A DNA stretch of 45,964 nucleotides from positions 1 through 45,964 of the forward strand of contig CACWNW010000018.1 in the NCBI GenBank assembly GCA_902762305.1, in the 5' to 3' direction. Source of the stretch: Fibrobacter succinogenes (GTDB lineage Bacteria > Fibrobacterota > Fibrobacteria > Fibrobacterales > Fibrobacteraceae). Below the pieces are notes generated by a model that worked only from the letters and a program-made list of their open reading frames with translations, ran no database searches and had not been told where the DNA came from. The translations under genes and the position numbers were made by a program. This document shows, one piece after another, positions 1,447 to 17,857 of this stretch. Position 1 is the stretch's first letter. Each line of letters starts with the position of its first letter.

Positions 1447-4400
1447 CTACTTCACGTTCACGCGAAGGGTGCCGCTCCCCACCCGGACGAGGTACATCCC
1501 GGCGTTCGGGACCGGCAGGGAGAAGTTCGCCTCCCCCACCCAGCCGGAACGCAGCACGCGGCCCTGCATGTCGAGGAGGGCATAGACAGCCCCCTCTTGG
1601 GCTCCGGAGACCTGGACCGTACGCCCGAGGGCGGCGACACGGAACGCGGGGGCCACAGCGACCTGCGGCAGGGCATCCTTGCCCTTGCTGGAACTAGACT
1701 TCGCGCTGGAGCTGGACTTTGCAGAGCTGCTGGACTTCGCCGAGCTGGAAGAAGACTTCGCGGAACTGCTAGACTTGGCAGAGCTAGACGAGGACTTCGC
1801 AGAAGAACTGCTCTTGGCGCTCGAGCTGGAGCTTTCCGGATTGATCGGCGCAAAGTTCGCGGTGACCGTCGTATCCTGGGTCATCTTGACGCGGAGCGTT
1901 TCGCCATAGAGGCGCACGTCGTCTTGCCAGTTGCTCAGCTTGTAACCGTTATCCGGGACAGCCCTGAGCGTGACTTCCGTGCCGTACGCGTATATGCCGG
2001 TTTCGTTCAGGCCCGTCACTACGCCCCAGTTCTTGTTGTTCACCTTGACCGTGAGCTTGTATTCCTTCGCTTCCCACTTGGCATAGAATATCTTGTCGCC
2101 AGCGTCCTTCGGCGTAATGAAGGCGATAGAATCCCCCTGGAATGCCGCAGAAGTGTACCAGCCATGGAAAGAATAGCCCTCACGCGTGGGAACAGGCAGC
2201 ATAAGGCCTTCGCCGTACGTGTAGGTCGTCGTCGCATTCTCGAGCACGCCGCCATTGGCGTTGAGCACGAGAGCAAACACATCCTTCGTCACGAGAATCG
2301 GGTATTCGTCGCCCTGCGTCCAAACAGTGCCGGTAACGCCGTTTTCGATAGCAACGCCTTCCCCATCCTTCTGCACGTAGTCATGGAGCGCATCGGCGAC
2401 CGTACCGTCCTTGAACGCTTCACTGAGAGCGGCATGCCCGAACTTGCTTTCGGCAAGGCCCTCGACCGTTTCGAGGTAGTAGTTGTTGTCAGAGACAATC
2501 TTCTTGCTATAGCCGCTATCCGCAAGCACATAGTCCATAGCGCCCTTTGTACTTACCTTGGACAGTTCGCCAATAGTATAGTTATTCAAGAGCTTGAAGT
2601 TGATGTGCGAATCAATACGCACCACAAGCCCAGAAACATAGCTGAAACTGCTGGGTGCTTCGCTATAAACCTTGCCTGTATTGTAGTTGTTCGCTATCAA
2701 GACCTCGGAGTCGTCGTCGCCGGACATGCTCCCGACAAGGCCTGCGGCATAAGAAGTCTTGCCACCGACGGTTCCTTCGTTGTAGCTTTGCAATAGCGTG
2801 AACGCTTTGGATGTCGTCCCGACAAGGCCTGCAGTGATACCGGAGTTATTGCTTGCGGGATCGTTCGTCACTTCTCCCCGGTTAAAGCTATTCATGATGC
2901 TCGTTACACCCTGGGCAATGCCGAGCAGCCCCGCCGTTTCGGAGTAACCGCCCAGGACCTTTGCCATGTTGTAACTGTTCGAGATACTCGTCGTCCCGTA
3001 CGCCATGGCAGCAAGGCCGCCCGTATTGGAGTAAGCATGGACAAGGCCCTCGCTATGGGAATCGGTAATGGAGAGCGTACCACTGGAGTATGCAACTAGG
3101 CCGCCGGCCGACTGTGAACGGGAGTGGAGAGTTCCCTTGAAATGGCAATTTTCCATCACGAGTTCCGAGGCTTCCGACGCACCGGTCTTTCCCTTGACCT
3201 CTAGGACAAATCCAGCGACATTCCCCTTGTCGGAAGCAAAGAAGGCGTCTTCGATAACAAGATTCTTTATGGCGACAGGGAGAGTGACATCATGTTCCCA
3301 GTCGTATTTCCCGAGCGTGATTTTATTGAACAAGGCCATGCCACCTTTTTTCACATCGGCATAGAGTCCCGATATCTTGTGGCCCTGGCCGTCGAAGGTT
3401 CCTCCGAAATTCGGTATCATCTCCCAAGGCAGGAACGATGCCACGTTCGCACTGTCGAGCGAGCCGTCTTCGTTCAGCACATGTTCGTTCACCACGATAT
3501 CCTTGGTGAGCTTGCCGCAAACATACTGCTGCGCCGAATTATAGTACATCCTGTGCGTCCCGCTCACGTATGCCGCATACCCGTAGAGTTCCGCGACATC
3601 CGTAATGACATAGCACTGGTCCGCCGAATCGAGAGCAGGCATCTTGAGCTTGAGCCAAGCCGCATAATACGTCTTGTCGCCGGTATCCGTCGCTGTAATC
3701 GCCGTAACAGGCTTACCCGAAAGTTCCGCATTATCGTACCAGCCGGCAAAGACGTTCGTATCGAGCGAGAGCTTGGTCGGCAAGGTCACACCCACGCCTT
3801 CCGTATAGAGCGTCACGTTTCCGGAATCAATCGTGCCGCCATTCGTGTTGAGCGTCACCTTGAACGTCCTCTGGAGCTTTGCCCAGAATTCCTTGTCGCC
3901 CGTAGCGGTCGAGTCAATCTGCGTTACTACTTTACCATCGTACTGGGCATTGTCGTACCAACCCATGAAGGTCGTATTTTCTTTCACGACCGAGGGGAGA
4001 ATCTTCTTGAAGCCCGCTATATAGTTATCAAAATAGCTTGCCGTATCGCCTTCGAAGGTATGGAACGTGACAGCGTACCTCTGGGCAAGGGAATTCTTGA
4101 GTTCGCCCGAGAAGTTCGGGTAGGCGTCCGTACCCACGGTTTGGCCCCATACAGAGCCGTTTTCGCCATCGCGTAGCATGGCAGCGACAGGGCCGTTCTT
4201 GAACTGATCTGCGGTCGCGGAGAGGCCTGCAGGTTCCTTGTTCCCCTGCGTATTCAGGTAGTAGCAGTTGTCAAACTGGTAAATGACCGAAGAAAGCGAG
4301 GTGCCAAAAAGGGCCCTGCTATCACGAGCCATCTTCGACTTGTCCTTCCATACGTTGTAACAGTTCTTGACCGTGACAGTGGGGAAAGCCATGAAGTGAG

Positions 4401-6483
4401 CGATGATGCCTGCTGTATAGAAATTCGACCCAAGCGCAAGACCAAGGTTGTAGACATTCTCCATATCCAGGAAGCCCTTGTAACCGACACTGCCCACAAT
4501 GCCCGCGATGCCCTGGGCGCTAGAATACGTCTCAACCGTCGATTCGTTGTACACTCCGGAAATCTTGACATAGGAAGCCGGCTGGGCATCGCTGTTCCCG
4601 AGCTGGGCATTGGCGGTCTGGCCGACGATAGCCCCCATGTAGTTTGCCTTGGCCTTGAAATAGGAATCCACCAGGCCGAAATTCTTCAGCACGGCATACT
4701 TCAGCGGGTAACCGGCGACGCTCCCGAAGAGGCCGAAATTGTTGCGGCTGGTAGAATCGTCATAGTAGAGGCCCGAAATGGTGTGGCCCATTCCGTCGAA
4801 TTCGCCATAGAAGCTATCTATCGGGACCCACGGGACAAAGCGGCCAGCCCTGTCAGTGTTGAGCATGCCGTTTTTATCCAGCACGCCCTGGTTCACCACG
4901 ATATCCTTTTCAAGCACCGCACAGGCATATTCTTCCTTCACAAAGCCGTCGGCACCGTTCACGATGGCGGCAAAGCCGTAAAGTTCGGCAGCATTACTGA
5001 TGACATAGCAGGTGTCCTTGTTTATGGGCGGAGTCTGCAGTTTGTACCACTTCGCATAGAAGGTCTTGTCGCCGGAATCTTCTTTGCCAATTGCAACAAC
5101 CCTGTCACCGCTGAGGTCTTCGTTGGCATACCACCCGACAAAGACATAGCCCCTGCGGGAAACCTTCTTCGGGAGCACCACACCTACGCTATGCGTATAT
5201 TGTTCCACAAGGCCCGAATCGATTGTACCGCTATTCGTAACGAATGTCACCTTGTACTTCTTTTCGTACCTGCCCCAGTAACTGACATCTGCCGTCAGCG
5301 TCGCAGGCGTGTGGACAACCGTGTCTCCCGTCAGGCCGCTGTTTGCATACCAGCCGAAGAATTCGTACCCGTCGACATCCACATTGGGAATCCTGTAGCT
5401 GTAGCCGACGACCATGTCCTTCGTCTTGAGCTTGGTGCTGCCATGGTAGACATTCATCTTTATCGTCTTAAAGCTAGCACCCGTCAGAGAACCACTGAAA
5501 TTCGGGAGGGGGTCGGTCCCTACCTTCTGCCCCCACTTGGTGCCATTAATCCCATCCAGGTCGTAATGGCGCATTACCTGCGTAATGATGCCGCTCTTCA
5601 GTTCCTCTTCGGTGACGGACCTGCCCGCGTGCTCGTTACGGCCCGGTTCAAGGTAGAACACGTTCTCGATGATGTTCGCGTCATCCTTCGTAAAGCCGCC
5701 AAACACGGACTTGATAGAGTTCGAATTGCCGGTACCGATAATCTCGCCCGCATTGTAGGCGTTGATTACGGCTATTCCGTTTGCAGCCTGGTAGCCAATC
5801 ACCCCGCCAATATTGTTCGGGCCGACAACGGTTCCCGTATTATACACATTGTACAACCCGATCCGAACAGTAGCGTAATTGGATGTCGTACCCACGATGC
5901 CGCCGGCGTTGTTCCTTACCGCCTCGACCCTAGAAGCGTTGAAGCAGTTTTCGATTACTACGGAAGCCATCCGCGAATAGGCGGACCCCGCGATTCCACC
6001 CGCAGAATAGCCCGCACGGAAATAGGAGCCCACGACGCCGACATTCTTGACAACCGTATTCACGTACTGGTTTTCAGCTGTATGGAGGCTCTTGAAAAAG
6101 CCCGCATCGGTCCCCGTCTCGCTGGAGAAATAGAGGCCCGAGACCGTATGGTTCTGGCCGTCAAACGTACCGTAGAAGGGCCCTATCGGCGTCCATTTTG
6201 CAAAATTCGCCGTATCCGCCGCGTTGAGCGAGCCATCGGACTTGAGCACGTTCTGGTTGATTACGATGTCCTTCGTGAGCTTGCCGCAGGCAGTAGCATC
6301 GTACGGGAAGTTGATATCGCCGTTCACGATGGCGGCAAAGCCGTAGAGTTCGGCCGCATTTGAAATCTGGTAACAGCCGTTCTTATACTCCGGCTGTTCG
6401 GGGGTGATGGTCGTCGCGGCCGTCGCAATCGCACAAGAAAGCGCAACCGACGCACAAAAGAGGAATCCTTTGCTTTTAAGCAT
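1447..6483 (-). CDS. Large secreted surface protein with GLUG and InlB-type repeats, polyserine linker and C-terminal sorting domain
   Basis: A 1678-residue modular protein. After a signal peptide (MLKSKGFLFC.., cut near residue 23) there are three copies of a module that opens CY-ISNAAELYGFAA-VNG, continues KDIV-N--VL, and runs into FDGQ-H--SGLY followed by GLUG-type repeats (VKNVGVV..GGIAG). The modules are separated by about five InlB/Listeria-Bacteroides beta-grasp repeats (GGTIDS..FAGWYDN..DKTYYAAW) plus one divergent copy (GYKLSNWQDD). A Ser/Ala/Lys linker rich in SSSSAK follows, then a C-terminal beta domain (LLDMQGRVLRSG..GMYLVRV) resembling type IX secretion sorting domains. I infer a cell-surface adhesin or binding protein; no enzyme motif is visible. 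ATG 6483 is preferred because AGGAG lies just upstream (6490s). The IS200 element begins about 20 bases past its stop. Confidence 0.9.
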   Translation of the reverse strand: MLKSKGFLFCASVALSCAIATAATTITPEQPEYKNGCYQISNAAELYGFAAIVNGDINFPYDATACGKLTKDIVINQNVLKSDGSLNAADTANFAKWTPIGPFYGTFDGQNHTVSGLYFSSETGTDAGFFKSLHTAENQYVNTVVKNVGVVGSYFRAGYSAGGIAGSAYSRMASVVIENCFNASRVEAVRNNAGGIVGTTSNYATVRIGLYNVYNTGTVVGPNNIGGVIGYQAANGIAVINAYNAGEIIGTGNSNSIKSVFGGFTKDDANIIENVFYLEPGRNEHAGRSVTEEELKSGIITQVMRHYDLDGINGTKWGQKVGTDPLPNFSGSLTGASFKTIKMNVYHGSTKLKTKDMVVGYSYRIPNVDVDGYEFFGWYANSGLTGDTVVHTPATLTADVSYWGRYEKKYKVTFVTNSGTIDSGLVEQYTHSVGVVLPKKVSRRGYVFVGWYANEDLSGDRVVAIGKEDSGDKTFYAKWYKLQTPPINKDTCYVISNAAELYGFAAIVNGADGFVKEEYACAVLEKDIVVNQGVLDKNGMLNTDRAGRFVPWVPIDSFYGEFDGMGHTISGLYYDDSTSRNNFGLFGSVAGYPLKYAVLKNFGLVDSYFKAKANYMGAIVGQTANAQLGNSDAQPASYVKISGVYNESTVETYSSAQGIAGIVGSVGYKGFLDMENVYNLGLALGSNFYTAGIIAHFMAFPTVTVKNCYNVWKDKSKMARDSRALFGTSLSSVIYQFDNCYYLNTQGNKEPAGLSATADQFKNGPVAAMLRDGENGSVWGQTVGTDAYPNFSGELKNSLAQRYAVTFHTFEGDTASYFDNYIAGFKKILPSVVKENTTFMGWYDNAQYDGKVVTQIDSTATGDKEFWAKLQRTFKVTLNTNGGTIDSGNVTLYTEGVGVTLPTKLSLDTNVFAGWYDNAELSGKPVTAITATDTGDKTYYAAWLKLKMPALDSADQCYVITDVAELYGYAAYVSGTHRMYYNSAQQYVCGKLTKDIVVNEHVLNEDGSLDSANVASFLPWEMIPNFGGTFDGQGHKISGLYADVKKGGMALFNKITLGKYDWEHDVTLPVAIKNLVIEDAFFASDKGNVAGFVLEVKGKTGASEASELVMENCHFKGTLHSRSQSAGGLVAYSSGTLSITDSHSEGLVHAYSNTGGLAAMAYGTTSISNSYNMAKVLGGYSETAGLLGIAQGVTSIMNSFNRGEVTNDPASNNSGITAGLVGTTSKAFTLLQSYNEGTVGGKTSYAAGLVGSMSGDDDSEVLIANNYNTGKVYSEAPSSFSYVSGLVVRIDSHINFKLLNNYTIGELSKVSTKGAMDYVLADSGYSKKIVSDNNYYLETVEGLAESKFGHAALSEAFKDGTVADALHDYVQKDGEGVAIENGVTGTVWTQGDEYPILVTKDVFALVLNANGGVLENATTTYTYGEGLMLPVPTREGYSFHGWYTSAAFQGDSIAFITPKDAGDKIFYAKWEAKEYKLTVKVNNKNWGVVTGLNETGIYAYGTEVTLRAVPDNGYKLSNWQDDVRLYGETLRVKMTQDTTVTANFAPINPESSSSSAKSSSSAKSSSSSAKSSSSAKSSSSSAKSSSSAKSSSSAKSSSSKGKDALPQVAVAPAFRVAALGRTVQVSGAQEGAVYALLDMQGRVLRSGWVGEANFSLPVPNAGMYLVRVGSGTLRVNVK

Positions 6484-6524
6484 CTTTGTTACTCCTGATA
6501 ACTGACACATATATATAATAATAC

Positions 6525-6547
6525 AAACTGCTTATTTATTGCAGTTT
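6525..6547. promoter_or_regulatory. Inverted repeat in the divergent promoter region
   Basis: AAACTGC (6525-6531) and GCAGTTT (6541-6547) form a perfect 7-bp inverted repeat with a 9-nt AT-rich spacer. It lies about 40 bp upstream of the large surface-protein start and next to its probable AT-rich -10 region (TATTAT/TATATA, 6505-6524), so it is placed like an operator. No cognate regulator is identifiable. Confidence 0.4.
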
Positions 6548-6693
6548 TGTGAAGACGTCCCCGCCAATTCGCGTTGTAAAACATTGCAATACAAATTTGG
6601 ACAAAAAACGGAAATTTCAGGCAATCCGGCAGCGAGAACAGGCAAATGCGCACAGACGAACCCATAAATATATCGTTACTTCCTACTCATTTG

Positions 6694-6699
6694 TATATT
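6694..6699 (+). promoter_or_regulatory. -10 box TATATT, six bases before the thioesterase ATG
   Basis: TATATT is followed by TGTGGC and then ATG 6706, with no Shine-Dalgarno sequence. A start site about seven bases after the box would be the A of the ATG, predicting a leaderless mRNA. Confidence 0.55.
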
Positions 6700-6705
6700 T
6701 GTGGC

Positions 6706-7122
6706 ATGGAAACAGCAAAAAAATCTTATACCGCCCGTATCGAAGTCCGCTATGCGGAAACCGACCAGATGGGTGTCGTGCACCACGCCGTTTACCCCGT
6801 GTGGTTCGAACAAGCTAGAACAGAATTTTTTAGGGTCGCAGGCGCAAGCTACGCCCAGATGGAAGCCGAAGGGTTCATGAGCCCGGTGCTCGAACTCAAC
6901 GTGCAGTACAAGAACCCGACGCATTACGGTGAATTTGTCGATGTCGAGACGACCATCGAGAGGGTCGGCAGCGTGCGCTTCAAGTTCAACTACAAGGTCT
7001 ACGTAGAAGGCAAGCTCTGCACCACGGGTTACACCATCCACTGCATGCTCAAGGACGGCAGGCCCACCAGGGAACTCCCCAGCGGATTTAACAAAATAGC
7101 ATTCGTAAACGAAAAGGCCTAG
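6706..7122 (+). CDS. Acyl-CoA thioesterase, YbgC/FadM-like (hotdog fold)
   Basis: A 138-residue hotdog thioesterase predicted to hydrolyse acyl-CoA thioesters in the cytoplasm. The signature YAETDQMGVVHHAVYPVWFE (residues 16-35) is the 4HBT/YbgC active-site block, with Asp20 as the expected catalytic acid, and the length is typical. ATG 6706 was chosen over upstream ATG 6646 because the protein then aligns from its first residues and because TATATT lies exactly six bases upstream. It heads a three-gene run with the zinc-finger membrane protein (4-nt gap) and rarA. YbgC in proteobacteria is tied to the Tol-Pal cluster; that link is absent here, so the physiological substrate is open. Confidence 0.9.
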   Translation: METAKKSYTARIEVRYAETDQMGVVHHAVYPVWFEQARTEFFRVAGASYAQMEAEGFMSPVLELNVQYKNPTHYGEFVDVETTIERVGSVRFKFNYKVYVEGKLCTTGYTIHCMLKDGRPTRELPSGFNKIAFVNEKA

Positions 7123-9280: not shown

Positions 9281-11812
9281 TTAGTCCTTGACGCAGCGAA
9301 TTCCGAAGCGGAAGCGGTTGTTATCGCTTTTACGAACAGGCCTCTTGAAGACGGTCTTGCGCACGTCATTGACTCCGTTCGACGACATGATGTAGTAGTA
9401 GCCTGCATCGTTATCGATATCTTCTGCACCGATACACGCCACGGCCTCGTCCCTGACATTGACCATGTCGTAGCCCTCATGATCCTGGTAGCAGGTGTTC
9501 GGGATAACGGCAAAACCGTACTTATCTGTACCCTGGTTGTACCAAGGCCAGCTGAACGTGTATCTCAAATCGATGGCATATGTCGCCGAATCATTTGCCT
9601 TGGCATAAGCGAGCAGGCTATCCCAATCCGCAGTAGTCGAGACATGCCAGCCATCCGGGCAGATGGATCCCGTTGAATCAAACGGGTAGGTGTAGTGCAG
9701 CCCGTAAATGTCGCAGGAATCTTTCTTGCAGAGGCTATTATCCGATACATACTTGAGGTTTTCCGCCATCCATGTCGTGCCGTTGATTTCTACGGTCCTA
9801 TATTCATGGCCATCGCGTTCATCGACAAGCGTACCGTATGTACCCTTGTATCCGTATACCACTTTCTCTTCGCTCACGCAGCGGACGTTAAACTTAGTGT
9901 TTCCTTTGGCGTTCGCTTTAGAAACAAACGCAGAATCATCCGCATAGCCAACTTTATGGGCGGACAAGGCATATACAAGGGAATCATTCAGTTCCGTACT
10001 TGACCACAGGTAGGTTGCCGTATCGCCAAAATCATCCCTGCCGTTCCATATATACCCCATCATTATAAGCGAGAACCCCGAACTGTTAGTACCCTTTTGG
10101 GTATCATTCTCCTGGGATACCAGATAACGGGCTTTCTTATTATGAGCAGCTAGATACATCAACGTATCAAAGTCATCCTTTGTGGGCAGGTGCCAACCTG
10201 CAGGGCAGGCCGTCATGGCATCTTCATGCCGATAGAACCTTCCATAGCGCATGCACGAGAACGAATTAACATCGCGGGTTCCATTATAACACACGCTGCT
10301 GTCCGTCTCGAAATTCAGGTTCTCCGCCATCCACTTGGTATGCCCGATGTTTATGGTCTTGTACGTCCTGTTATCGCGGCTATCGGTAAATTCCCCGTAC
10401 TCGAGTTCGGGGTTCATGTAACTCAAGGTATCGTCCTTGAGGCGCCCCTTCATGCAAAGCAGCCCGGACACGTTCGCGGTATCGTTCTTGATTGTCGCGA
10501 TATTCGAGCCTTTCGCAAATACGACACTTCCCGTTATTTCGCCCTTCTTGTTCCCCCCTATCAGGAACCTGGCCTCATTGCCATCCGTGGGCTTAATGCC
10601 GAGACCAAATGCGTCAAAGGCATAGTCGTCACCCCAGCCTTCCTGTGCCTTGAGCATAAACCCGGCAAAGCACTCGCCACCGACATAAGCGAGAAGTTCT
10701 TTCCACTCGCTCTCTCTCGGGATATGCCATCCGAAGGGGCACGCCTTCTTGCCGTTAGCCTCGAGATACACATACCTGCCATTGATTTTCAAACTACCGT
10801 CTTCGTATATGGAGCACTTATTTTCGCCATTCTTGTTGCAGGCTCGGGTAGAAAGCGAACTGTTTGGTTCAGCGCCATTACACACCTTCCGGTCTTCGCC
10901 ACGGACACCGAATGTCGACGTAGGATTATTTATATCGGGAACCAAGTCTCCCTTTATGCACCGCAATGCAGCAGGAGACGCAAAATTCGTAGCCGCCTTG
11001 TCTTTGATATTTTTTGAGTCAAATACCATGAAATACGGTGTGATATTTTCACTACCACTGGTCTGCGTAGCCGTAAAGAAATTTAACGCAGCCGATTTAT
11101 TCGTCCCCTTTTCGGGAATGGCAACGGTAAAACCATAATCATCGGTCCCCTGATAACTCGACGCGTTATCCTTAGAAAACAGAGACGGAGCTAACCCCTT
11201 ATACTCGTAGAATGTGGGTGTCGATCCGTAGAACTTATTAAGCAGGGCCAACCAATCCCCCCTCGTCGGAATTCTCCATCCATCCGGGCAGATTCCCTGG
11301 AGTGGCTGGTCACAAACAATGTTGTGTCCACAATAGGATTTTGTAGAATCAATAACCTCACCCCAGGTATAGATCCTTCCATACTTGGTGCAGTCCTTAT
11401 TATCACCTTCGTGGCAGCCGATGCTAGATGCCGGCGCGTAGTTCAGGTTCTGCGCCATCCAGGTCATCCCATCAACGGTAATGGTCCTGTACTCGCGCCC
11501 GTCACGCTTGTCGGTAAACGTGCCCTTCTCGATTTTAGAGTCGTCGGGGAGGTTTCTCGACGAAGACGATTCCGCGCTAGAAGACGACCCGCTGGAACTG
11601 GAGCCTTTCTTACTGGAGCTGGAGCCCTTCTTGCTGGAACTGGAACCGCTCTTGGAATCGACAGAGCCTTCATCGCCATCGGAATCGCTCGAGTCTTCTT
11701 CCAGGGAAGAATCGTCATCGTGAGCAATAAAGCCGGAATCGCCATCCCCGCAGGAGGTGATAGCAAACACGAAAGCCACCACCAGGATAAAAAGAAATTT
11801 TTGTTCCTTCAT
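9281..11812 (-). CDS. FISUMP-domain surface lipoprotein with polyserine linker
   Basis: An 843-residue lipoprotein. The signal peptide ends in the lipobox AITSC with lipidated Cys21, followed by an acidic then Ser-rich linker (SSSSKKG repeats, about 34-90). There are three clear FISUMP repeats opening GTFTDKRDGREYRTITVDG, GEFTDSRDNRTYKTINIG and GTLVDERDGHEYRTVEING, each followed by TWMAxNL and a CPxGWHxP block, and one degenerate repeat in the middle (GKKACPFGWHIPRESEW). The family is abundant in Fibrobacter and its function is unknown; a surface-binding role is inferred. ATG 11812 is chosen because the signal peptide begins there and GGAGG/AGGG lies upstream. The gene sits between two 59-bp direct repeats. 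Confidence 0.93.
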   Translation of the reverse strand: MKEQKFLFILVVAFVFAITSCGDGDSGFIAHDDDSSLEEDSSDSDGDEGSVDSKSGSSSSKKGSSSSKKGSSSSGSSSSAESSSSRNLPDDSKIEKGTFTDKRDGREYRTITVDGMTWMAQNLNYAPASSIGCHEGDNKDCTKYGRIYTWGEVIDSTKSYCGHNIVCDQPLQGICPDGWRIPTRGDWLALLNKFYGSTPTFYEYKGLAPSLFSKDNASSYQGTDDYGFTVAIPEKGTNKSAALNFFTATQTSGSENITPYFMVFDSKNIKDKAATNFASPAALRCIKGDLVPDINNPTSTFGVRGEDRKVCNGAEPNSSLSTRACNKNGENKCSIYEDGSLKINGRYVYLEANGKKACPFGWHIPRESEWKELLAYVGGECFAGFMLKAQEGWGDDYAFDAFGLGIKPTDGNEARFLIGGNKKGEITGSVVFAKGSNIATIKNDTANVSGLLCMKGRLKDDTLSYMNPELEYGEFTDSRDNRTYKTINIGHTKWMAENLNFETDSSVCYNGTRDVNSFSCMRYGRFYRHEDAMTACPAGWHLPTKDDFDTLMYLAAHNKKARYLVSQENDTQKGTNSSGFSLIMMGYIWNGRDDFGDTATYLWSSTELNDSLVYALSAHKVGYADDSAFVSKANAKGNTKFNVRCVSEEKVVYGYKGTYGTLVDERDGHEYRTVEINGTTWMAENLKYVSDNSLCKKDSCDIYGLHYTYPFDSTGSICPDGWHVSTTADWDSLLAYAKANDSATYAIDLRYTFSWPWYNQGTDKYGFAVIPNTCYQDHEGYDMVNVRDEAVACIGAEDIDNDAGYYYIMSSNGVNDVRKTVFKRPVRKSDNNRFRFGIRCVKD

Positions 11813-11839
11813 ATAAGCCCTGAACCTCCGTTTTATCAA

Positions 11840-11868
11840 GTTATATATTTTTCTGCAACGGTAATCAA
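11840..11868 (-). promoter_or_regulatory. Promoter of the 9281-11812 FISUMP gene
   Basis: On the minus strand TTGATT (11868-11863) and TATAAC (11845-11840) are separated by 17 nt, about 28 nt upstream of the chosen ATG. The spacing and position suit a sigma70-type promoter. It lies inside the segment bracketed by the 59-bp repeats, so the gene carries its own promoter. Confidence 0.5.
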
Positions 11869-11913
11869 GCCCTACGGGCCGCAATTTCGCCCTTTTCGTG
11901 GGAAAGTCAACTT

Positions 11914-12898: not shown

Positions 12899-12918
12899 AT
12901 CCCCGCCTTCGCGGGGAT
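12899..12918. repeat. Short palindrome ATCCCCGC-CTTC-GCGGGGAT
   Basis: A perfect 8-bp stem with a 4-nt loop, flanked by G and GAC, in the prmA upstream region. Its form resembles small intergenic palindromic repeats found dispersed in many bacterial genomes. Only one copy lies in this window. Confidence 0.6.
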
Positions 12919-13026: not shown

Positions 13027-14472
13027 CTATTCCACGACTTCGATTTTCTTTGCGCTGAGTTCCTTCGTATCGATGGAAGAAATCGTCGAACCGTCCGTGA
13101 GAGAAATCTTGCGGATTTCTGCCACGTTGTACATGGCGACCCAAGCGGTGTTGTTGTCGATAGCCACGATATCGTAGGGGTTTTCAGCGTTGATTGCCTT
13201 CTGCCAGGCAACCGTCTTTGCGCTGGTATTCACCTTCGAAATGCTGCCCTTGTCCTTGCGGTCCATTACATACAGGCCACCATTGACTACCACAATTTTC
13301 ATGTCACCCGAAAACTGAATTCCTTGGTCGCTAAGGCTTCCGTTTTCAACCCAATAAAGGCTACCAGAAATATAGTCCGACATAATGACGAACACTTCGC
13401 CATCGACAGCGGCAACACCGGCAGGCTTATTTTTCGGCTTATTTTCATCATAAAGGGTGGTGAGTTTCAAACCATTATAAGAATACGCGACCGCACCACG
13501 GTCGCCGATATAGAAGAGTTCTCCCTTGCGATCAAAGTAAATGGAACCGCTAGCATCGACAACACCATCAATTTTCCTTACCGACTTATCATTCAAATCG
13601 ACTTCGACAGCGGGAACATTCTGGTAAGCCTTGTAAACGGCAACAACAGCCTTGCCAGAAACTGGATCAGCATCCATCATGTACACGCCACCGCCAAGCA
13701 GCGTACCGCTCACCCAAAGTTCAGACTTCTTTTTCTTCAGGTCAACCTTTTCGATACCGCGGTTTTCATCGGCATCAATACCCCAAGCGGCGTTGTATTC
13801 GCCCTGTGTACCCACGTACACATTGCCCTTCACGACCTTCACAGCCTGCGGGTTCTTGGTCAGAAGCTGAATCGTATCAAGAAGGGTGCCATCGCTCAAT
13901 TTATACATAGCGAGAAGGCCCGGATCGTTGAAGATTGCGCTATATCCATCAGCGCCAACTTCATAGCGCTGGAACACGGCAAACAGTGTATCGCCGGAAA
14001 CTTCGAGGTCGGCGGCATTAGGCGTTTCAGAGAGGAAAGTCACCTTCGGTTCCACGGAACTGCTAGATTCCGGTTCTTCGGAAGAGCTGCTCACCGCCTC
14101 GCTGGAACTGGACTTGGCTTCGCTGGAACTGGATTTTGCGGAGCTGCTAGAGTTGGCCTTTTCGGAAGAACTCGACTTAGCAGAGCTGCTGGAGTCCTTT
14201 TTTTCAGAGCTGCTGGACTTGTCGTCCTTCTTGCTGGAGCTGGACTTAGCCTTTTCCGAGCTGCTCGACTTGCCCTTCTTCGAGCTGCTGGACTTCGCCT
14301 TCACGGAGCTGGAGCTTTCGCCGTCGTCGGAATCGCTGCTGAGATCATCGTCCAGGCAGTTTTCATTGTCGAGGCAATCCACGCTGGCGCCCGAGCTGTT
14401 GTCGTCACCGCAAGCGCTCATGAAGAACGCAAGCGACATCGAAGCGAGTAGTGTGAGGATTTTTTTATTCAT
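13027..14472 (-). CDS. Surface lipoprotein with polyserine tether and beta-propeller domain, BtuG-like candidate
   Basis: A 481-residue lipoprotein. The signal peptide ends FMSAC (lipidated Cys21). Residues about 50-145 are a tether of SSSS blocks alternating with Lys/Glu/Ala. The rest is a YVTN/SMP-30-like beta-propeller, seen as repeated blade text: PQAVKVVKGNVYVGT, GIEKVDLKKKKSEL, ASGSIYFDRKGELFYIG, PAGVAAVDGEVFVIM, KIVVVNGGLYVMD, PYDIVAIDNNTAWVA. It starts 42 nt after the BtuB-like receptor under a cobalamin riboswitch. In Bacteroides, BtuG is a surface beta-propeller lipoprotein that captures vitamin B12 and hands it to BtuB. Architecture and context suggest the same job here, although this is inference and direct sequence similarity was not tested. 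RBS AGGAAG precedes ATG 14472. Confidence 0.85.
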   Translation of the reverse strand: MNKKILTLLASMSLAFFMSACGDDNSSGASVDCLDNENCLDDDLSSDSDDGESSSSVKAKSSSSKKGKSSSSEKAKSSSSKKDDKSSSSEKKDSSSSAKSSSSEKANSSSSAKSSSSEAKSSSSEAVSSSSEEPESSSSVEPKVTFLSETPNAADLEVSGDTLFAVFQRYEVGADGYSAIFNDPGLLAMYKLSDGTLLDTIQLLTKNPQAVKVVKGNVYVGTQGEYNAAWGIDADENRGIEKVDLKKKKSELWVSGTLLGGGVYMMDADPVSGKAVVAVYKAYQNVPAVEVDLNDKSVRKIDGVVDASGSIYFDRKGELFYIGDRGAVAYSYNGLKLTTLYDENKPKNKPAGVAAVDGEVFVIMSDYISGSLYWVENGSLSDQGIQFSGDMKIVVVNGGLYVMDRKDKGSISKVNTSAKTVAWQKAINAENPYDIVAIDNNTAWVAMYNVAEIRKISLTDGSTISSIDTKELSAKKIEVVE

Positions 14473-14514
14473 GGTTGCTTCCTTTTCTGGCTTTTCGCAT
14501 GTTATGCGCGGGGG

Positions 14515-16569
14515 CTAGAACCCCTGTATGAGTGTAAACCTGTATTCTCGACCGGGCGCCGGGTAGGGCGTATAGATATTGCGGTAGGTCTCATCCGAAA
14601 TATTGTCCACGGCGAACATGATTCTCGTCTTTTGCCACGGCTGCCATGCAATCGAGGCGTTATAGCGGGCAACCGGGGGCTGCCTCGTGAAATTCATACG
14701 GTCACTGAAAATTCGCGTCCTGTAAACAGCCTGGAACACGACGCTCAAATCAAGCGGCAAGAAGAACGTACCTTCGGCAAAATAGCTGTGCACGGGTTCG
14801 CCCGGCAGCAAGTTGCCCTTGTAGCCCGCGTCCACACCGTCGTCACGCGGGTCCTGGATTGTCCCGCGTAGCACCGTCTGGAAGAATTTCACCGGACGGC
14901 TTTCCAGCTCCAGTTCCACCCCGCGAATAAGCGACTTGTCGATATTGAAGGCCTTCATCAGGTTGGTACTGATAATCCAATATATACCGTTCTCGACATG
15001 ATTCTCGAAGTAGGTGGCACGCAATACCGAGCGGTTCTTCGGGGTCGCAAGCGAAAGGCCCGCGGCAAAACGCAAGGCAGATTCATCCTTGAGCGTGGGG
15101 CTCGAAAGCAATCCCGGATACACGCCGTAAAGTTCCATCAGTTGCGGCTGCCTGTAAAAGCGCCCGAACGAAACGTTGCCGCCAATCCAAGAATCCTTCT
15201 TCCCGAGTTTCGCCTGCACCATTCCCGCAAGGCTCAAATCACGGTCCGTTGCCTCGCTCACCACCGCAGCACCCGTAGTCATCAGCACCTGGCCGCCACC
15301 GATATCGTCGTACGTTTTGAGGATGTTGCCTTCGGCAAAAAGCGAGAACCAATCCGTAAAGCTGTATTCCGCATTGCCCGCAATGGAACACGTAAGGCGT
15401 TCCAGTTCAAAGCTTTTCAGCGTTCCGCGCGATTCCCAAAGTTCCGCACTGCCCGCAAGGCGCAAGTACGCCTCAAATTTGTCCAGCAGCAAATTCGCCG
15501 AAATCTCGGGAACGGCCCTATAGCCCGCAAGCCCATACTCCCTGAAATCCTTCGAGAGGAATCCTATCTTGTCGAGAGGGTAATACGATTGGGACATGTT
15601 CTTCTCGAACTTGCCGGTAACACCCGCCTCGAGAAACAGCACATCGAAAAAAGTCGGGAATTCTAGCCGGTACGCAACCTGCGCCATGTCGCCCACAAAT
15701 TCCGCCACATACGTCTGCAGGTCTTCCACGCCGGGGTTCCCCGCCTGCGTGTGCATCGCACTTGCAGACAAAATAGAGAAGGCCCCGTTCCCGTGGAGCA
15801 TGCGGTACTGGAAACTGCCGGAATATTCCGTGAACTCCGCGTTCCTGCGCCTGTCCTTAAAGTCGTCCTCATCGTTATAGAGGGTACCGTTTCTGTTATC
15901 GAACTCGTAATCGTTATCGCTGTGGCGCATGGATGCCGTCGCGGAGAACTGCACGCTGTCCTTTATGCTTGCGGAAACCTGCACGGAACCTTCGAACGTG
16001 TTATGCGAACCGTAACTCGCAATGACGCGCCCCTTCGGGGTCCTGCCGCTATGCAACGCATCCTTGGTCACGAAGTTTATCGCGCCACCTAGGCCCGCGC
16101 CGCCGAACTTCGCCGGGACCCTGTCCTTGTAGACCTCTATCCTCTCGATATTGTTGAGGTCGATTGCCCCCAGGTCGGCAGCACCGCCACCCGCATCGTT
16201 CAGGGGAATCCCGTCAATGCAAATCAGCACGTTACGTGCGGCAATCCCGCGGATAGATACCGTCTGGAAACTGCCCATGCCGCCCTGCTTGTAACCCTGG
16301 ATGCCCGAAAGCGACGAAATGACTTCGGAAGCCGAAAGGCCGAGGCCCTCCCATGCGGAAGGCGTAATTTCCATGTAGTCCGTTCCCGAGACTTCGACTC
16401 CGGATTCGGAGGGAGCGCTGATTATGGACTGCCCCAAGTCCTGAGCCGGGGCGGATTCATCGACGGAAATATCCTTCAATGAAGGATTGTCCTGCGCATG
16501 GGCGCCAACCCAGGCACAACACGAAAAGACCGCATACATCGCGGCTTTGCAGAATGACGTCGTTCGCAT
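14515..16569 (-). CDS. btuB: TonB-dependent outer-membrane receptor, probable vitamin B12 receptor
   Basis: A 684-residue outer-membrane beta-barrel receptor. The signal peptide (to about residue 25, AHA-QD) is followed by a plug domain with SVSIRG-like text (FQTVSIRGIAARNVLICIDG), IERIEVYKDR and GAINFVTK, then a barrel rich in alternating beta strands ending in the aromatic terminus FTLIQGF. A cobalamin riboswitch sits directly upstream, with its B12 box about 25 nt before the ATG, so cobalamins are the likely substrate. The RBS GAGGA lies five bases upstream of ATG 16569. A beta-propeller lipoprotein follows 42 nt downstream. No inner-membrane BtuCDF genes are in the window. Energy would come from a TonB system such as the one at 27820-33416. 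Confidence 0.92.
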   Translation of the reverse strand: MRTTSFCKAAMYAVFSCCAWVGAHAQDNPSLKDISVDESAPAQDLGQSIISAPSESGVEVSGTDYMEITPSAWEGLGLSASEVISSLSGIQGYKQGGMGSFQTVSIRGIAARNVLICIDGIPLNDAGGGAADLGAIDLNNIERIEVYKDRVPAKFGGAGLGGAINFVTKDALHSGRTPKGRVIASYGSHNTFEGSVQVSASIKDSVQFSATASMRHSDNDYEFDNRNGTLYNDEDDFKDRRRNAEFTEYSGSFQYRMLHGNGAFSILSASAMHTQAGNPGVEDLQTYVAEFVGDMAQVAYRLEFPTFFDVLFLEAGVTGKFEKNMSQSYYPLDKIGFLSKDFREYGLAGYRAVPEISANLLLDKFEAYLRLAGSAELWESRGTLKSFELERLTCSIAGNAEYSFTDWFSLFAEGNILKTYDDIGGGQVLMTTGAAVVSEATDRDLSLAGMVQAKLGKKDSWIGGNVSFGRFYRQPQLMELYGVYPGLLSSPTLKDESALRFAAGLSLATPKNRSVLRATYFENHVENGIYWIISTNLMKAFNIDKSLIRGVELELESRPVKFFQTVLRGTIQDPRDDGVDAGYKGNLLPGEPVHSYFAEGTFFLPLDLSVVFQAVYRTRIFSDRMNFTRQPPVARYNASIAWQPWQKTRIMFAVDNISDETYRNIYTPYPAPGREYRFTLIQGF

Positions 16570-16579
16570 CGTTCCTCAA

Positions 16580-16778
16580 CATCACGCTTCCCGCAGTTCT
16601 TCTGGCTCGGGGATCAACCTACTCCCGGCTCCTTCACACGCGGGTCACGCGCATTGGTTCATGCCGGTTTCGTCCTCCCTTACAGCGGCGCGACCGCCCC
16701 CGGCTTTCACGGGGTTCTCTCCTTGCAGGCCACCCGAACCGGGCTTTCCGCATGGGCTTTTCAGGGCACAGGAAACTT
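16580..16778 (-). promoter_or_regulatory. Cobalamin riboswitch
   Basis: The minus-strand leader carries the ordered conserved blocks of the cobalamin riboswitch: GGTTCGGGTGGCC, then GAGAACCCCGTGAAAGCCGG, CGCGCCGCTGTAA (matching the CCGCxACTGTAA block), and the B12 box GAGCCAGAAGAACTGC at 16608-16593. The box lies just upstream of the btuB RBS (GAGGA), so B12 binding probably blocks ribosome access and lowers expression of the receptor and its lipoprotein. Limits are approximate. Confidence 0.93.
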
Positions 16779-16785
16779 TTTAATA

Positions 16786-16791
16786 AATATA
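16786..16791 (-). promoter_or_regulatory. -10 box of the btuB riboswitch transcript
   Basis: TATATT on the minus strand lies about ten bases before the 5' end of the riboswitch. It matches the TA(T/C/A)ATT form seen at most promoters here. No clear -35 is seen; that position overlaps the inverted repeat at 16804-16818. Confidence 0.55.
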
Positions 16792-16840: not shown

Positions 16841-17857
16841 ATGCTGTTCATCCACCAATTTCCCGACTGGACCCGGTTCAGATTCGACTCCGCGCGGGTG
16901 CTCGACGCCCTCGGCAGGGCCCGCTTCTGCGAAGGGAGGCTTTCGGGCATCCTCACGTTCGCAGGCACGAAGGAATTCGAGACCGAACTTGTCACCGAAG
17001 ACATCGTCGCAAATTTCGCCATCGACGGGATTTCTCTCGACGCCGATTCCGTCCGGACGGATGTCGCGCTCCGCTCACAGGGAAGCACCGCCCATATCCA
17101 GAACTACATCGGGGCCATCGAGAACTACACGACCCCGCTCACGCAAGAGCGCCTGTTCAACTGGCACGGTTCCCTGGCCGGCAGCAAGACGACATCGTGG
17201 CGCAGCGACACAAGCGGAATCGACGGAAAGGACGGAAGCCCGAACTTTTCGGGACCGGGACCGGAACGCCTGGGCGCCGAAATGGAAAACTTTTTGCGCT
17301 GGTTCGAAGCCTCCCCCATGGACGGCACCATCAAGGCGGCCATCGCGCATTTCTGGTTCCTGACGCTGCGGCCCTTCGACAAGGCAAACGGGCGCATCGC
17401 GCGGGCCATCACCGCATTGCAGCTGAGCCGCGCGCAGAAATCCGCACGCATGCACTACGCCCTGAACCGCCAGATCCTGAAGAACCGCGAAGAATACCTC
17501 CGCACTTTGAACAGGGCGCAATGCGGCAACGGCGACCTCACGGAATGGATCCTCTGGTTCCTCGCGCAAATCGCGGAGGCGGTACAAACAAGCGAATCGG
17601 CCATCGAGTTCCAGACAAAGCGTTTCCGATTCCTCGCGAGACATTCTGGAGTGCAGACAACCGAAAGGGAACAGGTACTCCTGAACGCGGCCCTCACGGG
17701 GGAACTCCCGAGGGACTTTTCGGCAAAGGACGTGGCGGCCATCTTCGGCACGAGCCACGACACCGCACTGCGCGAAATACAGAGCCTGATGGGAAAGGGG
17801 CTCATTACCGCAAGCAAGAAGGGCGGGCGCAGCCGCACCTACAGCGTGGTGGAATAA
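16841..17857 (+). CDS. Fic-fold protein with N-terminal DUF4172-like and C-terminal winged-helix domains; active site degenerate
   Basis: A 338-residue Fic-family protein. The N-terminal region (FIHQFPDWTRFRFD..) is DUF4172-like, the Fic core spans about 85-240, and the C-terminus (KDVAAIFGTSHDTALREIQSLMGKGLI) is a DNA-binding-type winged helix. The Fic motif reads LRPFDKANGRIAR (176-188). Relative to the consensus HPFx(D/E)GNGRxxR, the catalytic His is Arg177, the acidic residue is Lys181 and the first Gly is Ala182; Asn183, Gly184, Arg185 and Arg188 remain. The inhibitory helix, usually (S/T)xxxEG, reads NFAIDG (58-63). The protein is therefore unlikely to be an AMP transferase and may be a transcription factor with a relict Fic domain. 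It is divergent from btuB and has a leaderless-type start. Confidence 0.85.
   Translation: MLFIHQFPDWTRFRFDSARVLDALGRARFCEGRLSGILTFAGTKEFETELVTEDIVANFAIDGISLDADSVRTDVALRSQGSTAHIQNYIGAIENYTTPLTQERLFNWHGSLAGSKTTSWRSDTSGIDGKDGSPNFSGPGPERLGAEMENFLRWFEASPMDGTIKAAIAHFWFLTLRPFDKANGRIARAITALQLSRAQKSARMHYALNRQILKNREEYLRTLNRAQCGNGDLTEWILWFLAQIAEAVQTSESAIEFQTKRFRFLARHSGVQTTEREQVLLNAALTGELPRDFSAKDVAAIFGTSHDTALREIQSLMGKGLITASKKGGRSRTYSVVE

Follow-up and report, generated by a model that had tools for sequence, protein, structure and literature searches.

The closest described counterparts of the locus reported here are the BtuB–BtuG pairs of Bacteroides, in which BtuG, a seven-bladed beta-propeller lipoprotein, adjoins the TonB-dependent receptor BtuB under the control of a cobalamin riboswitch; BtuG1, BtuG2 and BtuG3 of Bacteroides thetaiotaomicron and BtuG of Bacteroides uniformis (PDB 8blw, 8bmx, 8bmy, 8okv, 3dsm and others) are the members used for comparison. 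In BtuB2G2, loops of the receptor hold the short N-terminal linker that comes off the lipid anchor, and this linker may be the hinge of a pedal-bin lid, a mechanism that rests on three Bacteroides pairs (PMC10404256). BtuG has been reported as restricted to the Bacteroidetes, with no homologue outside them among 313 human gut genomes in a BlastP search at 1e-10 (Wexler et al.; PMC6143338), and a literature search found no paper covering BtuG together with Fibrobacter. Here we analyse 45,964 nucleotides of DNA from Fibrobacter succinogenes (assembly GCA_902762305.1, contig CACWNW010000018.1, positions 1 to 45,964, forward strand; hereafter the window, to the whole of which all coordinates refer unless another contig or locus is named), which carry on the minus strand a cobalamin riboswitch, a TonB-dependent receptor gene and the gene of a Ser-tethered propeller lipoprotein. 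The three elements belong to a real phylum-wide BtuB–BtuG-type system, of which the window holds a permuted, long-tethered variant. We consider it likely that this locus serves the uptake of corrinoids across the outer membrane, as a B12-repressed cassette of the BtuB–BtuG kind with a permuted propeller on a free leash.

Homology of the propeller to BtuG

The lipoprotein gene (13027-14472, minus strand; 481 residues) has orthologues beside a receptor gene throughout the genus, and two chain orders can be told apart among its relatives: type B, which is that of BtuG, and type A, a rotated (permuted) order to which the window protein belongs. A profile built from 41 phylum-wide type B relatives and searched against 177,635 distinct PDB sequences placed BtuG chains first (best E 1.5e-11). 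BtuG chains took all of the first ten places (distinct sequences) and 12 of the first 13, the exception being a surface-layer propeller from an archaeon, and the register was near-identical to the type B order (residues 86-295 of the 3dsm chain matched model positions 87-305). Escherichia coli YncE was unreported at E 0.1 in the same search. A model of a type B protein (L152), of limited quality (predicted local distance difference test, pLDDT, 75.2; thin alignment; low confidence over the first 50 residues), aligned with BtuG1 and BtuG2 from the first residue to the last (Z 22.7-23.4, 16-17% identity). For the window propeller, no relative was found by Pfam, by NCBIfam or by a profile of its own sub-family (A1) searched against PDB sequences; because this sub-family alone is too narrow, the window propeller is linked to BtuG through its type B orthologues.

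Judged by these profile comparisons, the propeller of the Fibrobacterota and BtuG of Bacteroides are homologous. The preliminary description of this DNA, which had proposed a BtuB–BtuG system, is borne out in that respect, since the receptor profile leads to BtuB and the propeller profile to BtuG1-3 and conservation of the trio is phylum-wide; its suggestion that the propeller had arisen independently, by convergence, is not, since BtuG ranks first in the PDB search. A match to DUF5074/BtuG profiles, to which the same description had looked, was obtained in part: the phylum-wide profile reaches BtuG, but the window protein has no match to DUF5074 (PF16819) above the Pfam gathering score. Of the 41 phylum-wide relatives, 13 match DUF5074 at E 0.001 or better (best 5.7e-10), and the family was dropped as a marker of BtuG when a 200-residue stretch of BtuG3 itself failed to match. 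Diverged Fibrobacterota relatives would probably fail the BlastP threshold applied by Wexler et al.

The likeness to BtuG thus extends over the seven-bladed propeller lipoprotein, the neighbouring BtuB receptor and the control by a cobalamin riboswitch, and in the type B relatives over the chain order and a short stalk. The window protein differs from BtuG in being circularly permuted, in bearing a 127-residue Ser-rich tether where BtuG has a short, hinge-capable N-terminal linker, and in occurring outside the Bacteroidota. Because neither the chain order nor the short hinge linker of BtuG is present, and because we infer its corrinoid binding, we class the window protein as a BtuG homologue and variant and not as a plain BtuG.

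Circular permutation of the propeller

The preliminary description had guessed at a beta-propeller, and the AlphaFold2 model of the window protein indeed has 28 main strands arranged as seven four-stranded blades (pLDDT 89.9; predicted template modelling score, pTM, 0.89). The main feature, which that description did not contain, is that this propeller is a circular permutant. Its first part (13405-14046, minus strand), comprising blades 1-4 and strand a of blade 5, equals the C-terminal part of relatives with the BtuG order, and its second part (13030-13404, minus strand), from the rest of blade 5 to blade 7, equals their N-terminal part, as is evident from alignments, permuted BLAST matches and the model. 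Proteins from about 20 Fibrobacter genomes align with the window propeller end to end, whereas the majority align as two swapped pieces, in which residues 215-333 (window-propeller numbering) lead and residues 8-216 come second; alignment A5 gives a direct view of this. The collinear, type A orthologues are 47-83% identical to the window propeller, and the two swapped pieces of the type B orthologues are mostly 40-57% and 25-39% identical. When a hidden Markov model (HMM) of type B members was compared with a rotated version of itself, all full-length proteins were split cleanly, type A proteins scoring +51 to +121 bits and type B proteins -24 to -214 bits, with the window protein preferring the permuted HMM by 110 bits; the assignment of one truncated fragment (L138) to A or B was undecided. 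The chain order of BtuG is accordingly absent from the window protein and present in type B orthologues across the phylum.

The N-terminus of the type A model precedes strand a of blade 1, and in the same blade numbering the type B chain begins with strand b of blade 5 and finishes with strand a of blade 5. Since the shift amounts to three of seven blades, the anchor would enter the ring about 154 degrees away from its ancestral position. The type A order is judged to be derived from type B, because the type B order is found phylum-wide and is collinear with BtuG and because the A clade is nested among type B proteins. A second permutation, at the same boundary, occurs in a distant family, where L243 (genome G092) and L242 (G087), from one genus, align in swapped order as two pieces, of 197 residues (62% identity) and 129 residues (54% identity); it is independent of the permutation in the Fibrobacteraceae. 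At one further locus (L132, positions 4341-5459 and 5569-6951 of that locus), from a genome bin with 8% contamination (G072), two type B propeller lipoproteins that are 55% identical stand in tandem behind a single receptor, the second with a 111-residue Ser-rich tether. A tandem duplicate is the sort of intermediate that can yield a circular permutant.

The riboswitch–receptor–lipoprotein cassette

The riboswitch aptamer (RF00174; 16575-16788, minus strand) is full length and includes the B12 box. With cmscan it scores 85.1 bits (E 1.1e-19, model positions 1-189), above the gathering score of 31.5, and it is the only RF00174 match in the 3.6-Mb genome. It stands immediately 5' of the receptor gene (14515-16569, minus strand; 684 residues), and the lipoprotein gene starts 42 nucleotides beyond the receptor stop codon, both as previously described. 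A putative ribosome-binding site of the receptor gene, GAGGA (16577-16573), overlaps the 3' end of the riboswitch, so that action of the riboswitch on translation of the receptor gene is plausible. A consensus scan gave no convincing promoter or terminator in the gap between receptor and lipoprotein genes, and a weak terminator-like hairpin (12899-12918, minus strand) 3' of the lipoprotein gene.

This arrangement is widely kept, as the preliminary description had expected of other Fibrobacter genomes. The riboswitch is present in 73 of 80 Fibrobacter genomes, nearly all with exactly one, and the propeller likewise in 73 of 80; at every locus with a riboswitch and sufficient contig, the window included (71 of 71), riboswitch, receptor and propeller follow one another in this succession. 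Outside the genus, the propeller profile found members in families across the Fibrobacterota, and at no fewer than 35 such loci a riboswitch lies 2-3 kb upstream of the propeller gene on the same strand. The association of the trio exceeds chance. In genus g4 the receptor, where seen, is mostly downstream of the propeller, as at two (L208 and L223) of 14 g4 loci that have no strong riboswitch among the matches listed, and some g4 genomes encode two or three propellers. An apparent receptor–propeller fusion in L215 (a 972-residue open reading frame) was rejected as most likely an out-of-frame upstream extension.

The receptor carries the Pfam domains Plug (E 9.9e-17) and TonB_dep_Rec_b-barrel (E 1.1e-15), and a profile of 30 relatives searched against PDB sequences matched Bacteroides and E. 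coli BtuB best (E about 1e-35); another of the top matches, 9gbc, is labelled merely as a TonB-linked receptor. It thus resembles the BtuB proteins as a TonB-dependent receptor under a cobalamin riboswitch with BtuB as its best profile match, but falls far below the NCBIfam TonB-B12 equivalog cut-off (98.8 against 599.7 bits), and it has a surface lipoprotein partner, which E. coli BtuB has not. The TonB-B12 model was built for proteobacterial BtuB. A QDLG-x3-V motif (QDLG at window residues 43-46), in which Leu45 is invariant across the 30 sequences, is conserved at the mature N-terminus (alignment A7) and may be the TonB box. Receptor insertions or deletions linked to the permutation were looked for and none was found.

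The Ser-rich tether

The signal peptide with its lipobox (...FFMSAC-GDDN; 14410-14472, minus strand) ends at Cys21 and is followed by a Ser-rich tether of 127 residues (residues 22-148; 14029-14409, minus strand), measured from Cys21 to the first propeller motif, in which SSSS blocks are broken up by K, E, A, D and G. The polyserine tether of about 95 residues described earlier is a fair account of the Ser-rich core; over its full length the tether is not pure polyserine, since Ser makes up 43% of it. By a simple lipobox rule, which is unsure in a few distant members, the distance from the Cys to the first propeller motif is 72-164 residues in 23 of 23 Fibrobacteraceae type A proteins, as against a median of 18 in type B proteins (range 11-185; 88 of 103 under 60), and the window tether is about seven times the usual length. 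The earlier impression that the tether is unusual therefore holds with respect to most relatives, and needs qualifying in that further Fibrobacter lipoproteins carry Ser-rich tethers. One of these is encoded two genes downstream in the window (9281-11884, minus strand), with four Fib_succ_major matches and a Ser-rich tether of its own. Tethering of this sort seems to be widespread among the lipoproteins of Fibrobacter.

Probable exchange of the cassette between species

In the propeller tree the 23 Fibrobacteraceae type A proteins form a single clade (support 100) nested among type B members from the genus; the identical 23 rows, split into the identical two subclades, group together in the receptor tree (support 99). 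In the rpoB tree, by contrast, the type A species are scattered: the A/B label costs 7 changes, and a single A clade is rejected (approximately unbiased test, p about 1e-47). Genomes with near-identical rpoB can differ in type (G004 is A, G045 is B), and type A occurs also in genera g6 (including F. intestinalis, L148/L197) and g11, the remaining members of which are type B. A single chromosomal site, flanked by prmA on one side and by the Fic/DEAD-helicase genes on the other, holds an A cassette in some species and a B cassette in others. Type A occupies it in the window and in G003, G044 and G063, and on the Fic side in G010 and G019; type B occupies it in G009, G054 and G064, and in G037 without a helicase match. 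In the window, a gene for a Fic-domain protein (DUF4172 and Fic; 16841-17857, plus strand) is divergent from the riboswitch and, with prmA, flags this site.

Since the receptor and propeller trees agree, rpoB disagrees with them and the chromosomal site is shared, the cassette appears to have been exchanged as a unit, which fits what would be expected if receptor and propeller must fit one another. Exact transfer counts are not quoted because rpoB is a single gene and several of the genomes are metagenome bins.

Proposed mechanism and alternative explanations

We suggest that when B12 is scarce the riboswitch would permit production of receptor and lipoprotein. The lipoprotein would be exported to the cell surface, where its propeller would capture corrinoids and hand them to the receptor, and the receptor would import them using TonB energy. 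The permuted propeller may still dock on the receptor in the pose of BtuG, because no insertion or deletion in the receptor goes with the permutation. By analogy with BtuB2G2, a hinge of the same type could not be formed at the same place in the window protein; the long tether would instead let the chain reach the far side, so that what was a hinged lid would become a capture head free to move on its leash. Tentatively, and with somewhat less than even confidence, we propose that at least two permutations in the Fibrobacterota, at one boundary, moved the anchor of a BtuG-type lid across the ring, and that in Fibrobacter the lid was thereby freed on a long leash and the rebuilt cassette spread between species, replacing the ancestral version at the same site.

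Several observations weigh against the uptake cassette and its mechanism as proposed here. YncE is the best structural match of both models (Z 27 for type A, Z 25 for type B): a Foldseek search of PDB with the type B model put YncE at the top and BtuG chains from fourth place, and the 50 matches listed with the type A model include no BtuG, an absence that we attribute to the permutation and do not hold against membership of the BtuG family. We know of no part played by YncE in B12 transport. Conservation favours neither face of the propeller overall (p 0.44). The best-conserved polar loop residues (R27, N65, D182, D224, D248 and N289, in propeller-domain numbering) lie in the d-a and b-c loops, which are the more acidic in 73% of members, a pattern that we take as suggestive only. 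In favour of B12 uptake, the genome has a MetH sequence and a single FecCD-type permease with an adjoining ATPase gene; it also encodes the B12-independent MetE, so that B12 would be useful to the bacterium and perhaps not essential. About ten type B members within the genus have long tethers as well, and the tether of the independent permutant L243 is just 19 residues; permutation therefore needs no long tether. The long tether is universal among Fibrobacter permutants, neither unique to them nor demanded by permutation, and its association with permutation is essentially a single evolutionary event. The MetH matches themselves fall in two adjacent open frames (model positions 3-603 and 629-1182; G000, contig C16, 47381-50934, L245 and L246), MetH in this assembly being either split or frameshifted.

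These tether data are what might be expected if the propeller were a hinged lid exactly like BtuG, its tether a neutral habit for crossing the surface layer and its permutation mechanistically inert. The family's Ser-rich tethers, from 11 to 185 residues, have been lengthened several times without permutation, the second lipoprotein of the window is also Ser-tethered, and the receptor's lack of insertions or deletions tied to the permutation agrees with this account too. An N-terminus three blades away would, however, abolish the putative linker hinge of BtuB2G2 (PMC10404256), and none of the 23 Fibrobacteraceae permutants has a tether shorter than 72 residues, against the median of 18; we regard a plain hinged lid as a possibility to be taken seriously, albeit a doubtful one. 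It is unlikely that the propeller captures some other ligand, for example a siderophore, or is purely structural on the receptor. XusB of Bacteroides fragilis, a xenosiderophore-binding propeller lipoprotein whose small metal-bearing ligand is a ferric siderophore, does occur among the structural matches, and the general TonB-siderophore model scores the window receptor slightly above TonB-B12; yet a cobalamin riboswitch, which to our knowledge is not expected at XusB, accompanies all the assessable Fibrobacter loci and the 35 or more others, the best sequence-profile relatives are BtuG and BtuB, and the receptor and propeller trees are the same.

Propellers are common, Pfam is blank on the window protein and the closest fold is YncE, all of which could be read as convergence on a BtuG-like form from an independent origin. 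Such an origin is quite improbable given that the PDB profile search ranks BtuG, in register, above all other propellers and leaves YncE unreported, and that gene partner, riboswitch and lipoprotein design are all shared with BtuG. The blades being alike, alignments could also slip by one blade, and internal repeats or faulty assembly might have produced a spurious permutation. Matches of 190-210 residues at about 40-60% identity exceed any such slip, the order recurs in two dozen genomes, including that of the isolate F. intestinalis ATCC 43854, and the congeners L243 and L242 show it at 62% and 54% identity; the chance of an artefact is practically negligible.

Biological significance

Homologues across the Fibrobacterota imply that lid-assisted receptors are much more ancient, or more widely distributed, than was supposed. 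It is in our judgement uncommon for orthologues of a single genus to differ naturally by a circular permutation, for this to happen twice in a phylum at one boundary, and for the permuted form to move together with its receptor. Both chain orders stand beside related receptors, and even at one chromosomal site, and so constitute a natural experiment on how a lid hands over its ligand to the receptor: B12 delivery by the permuted form on its leash would mean that a fixed hinge can be dispensed with. The supply of B12 in the rumen and hindgut gives the trait ecological relevance.

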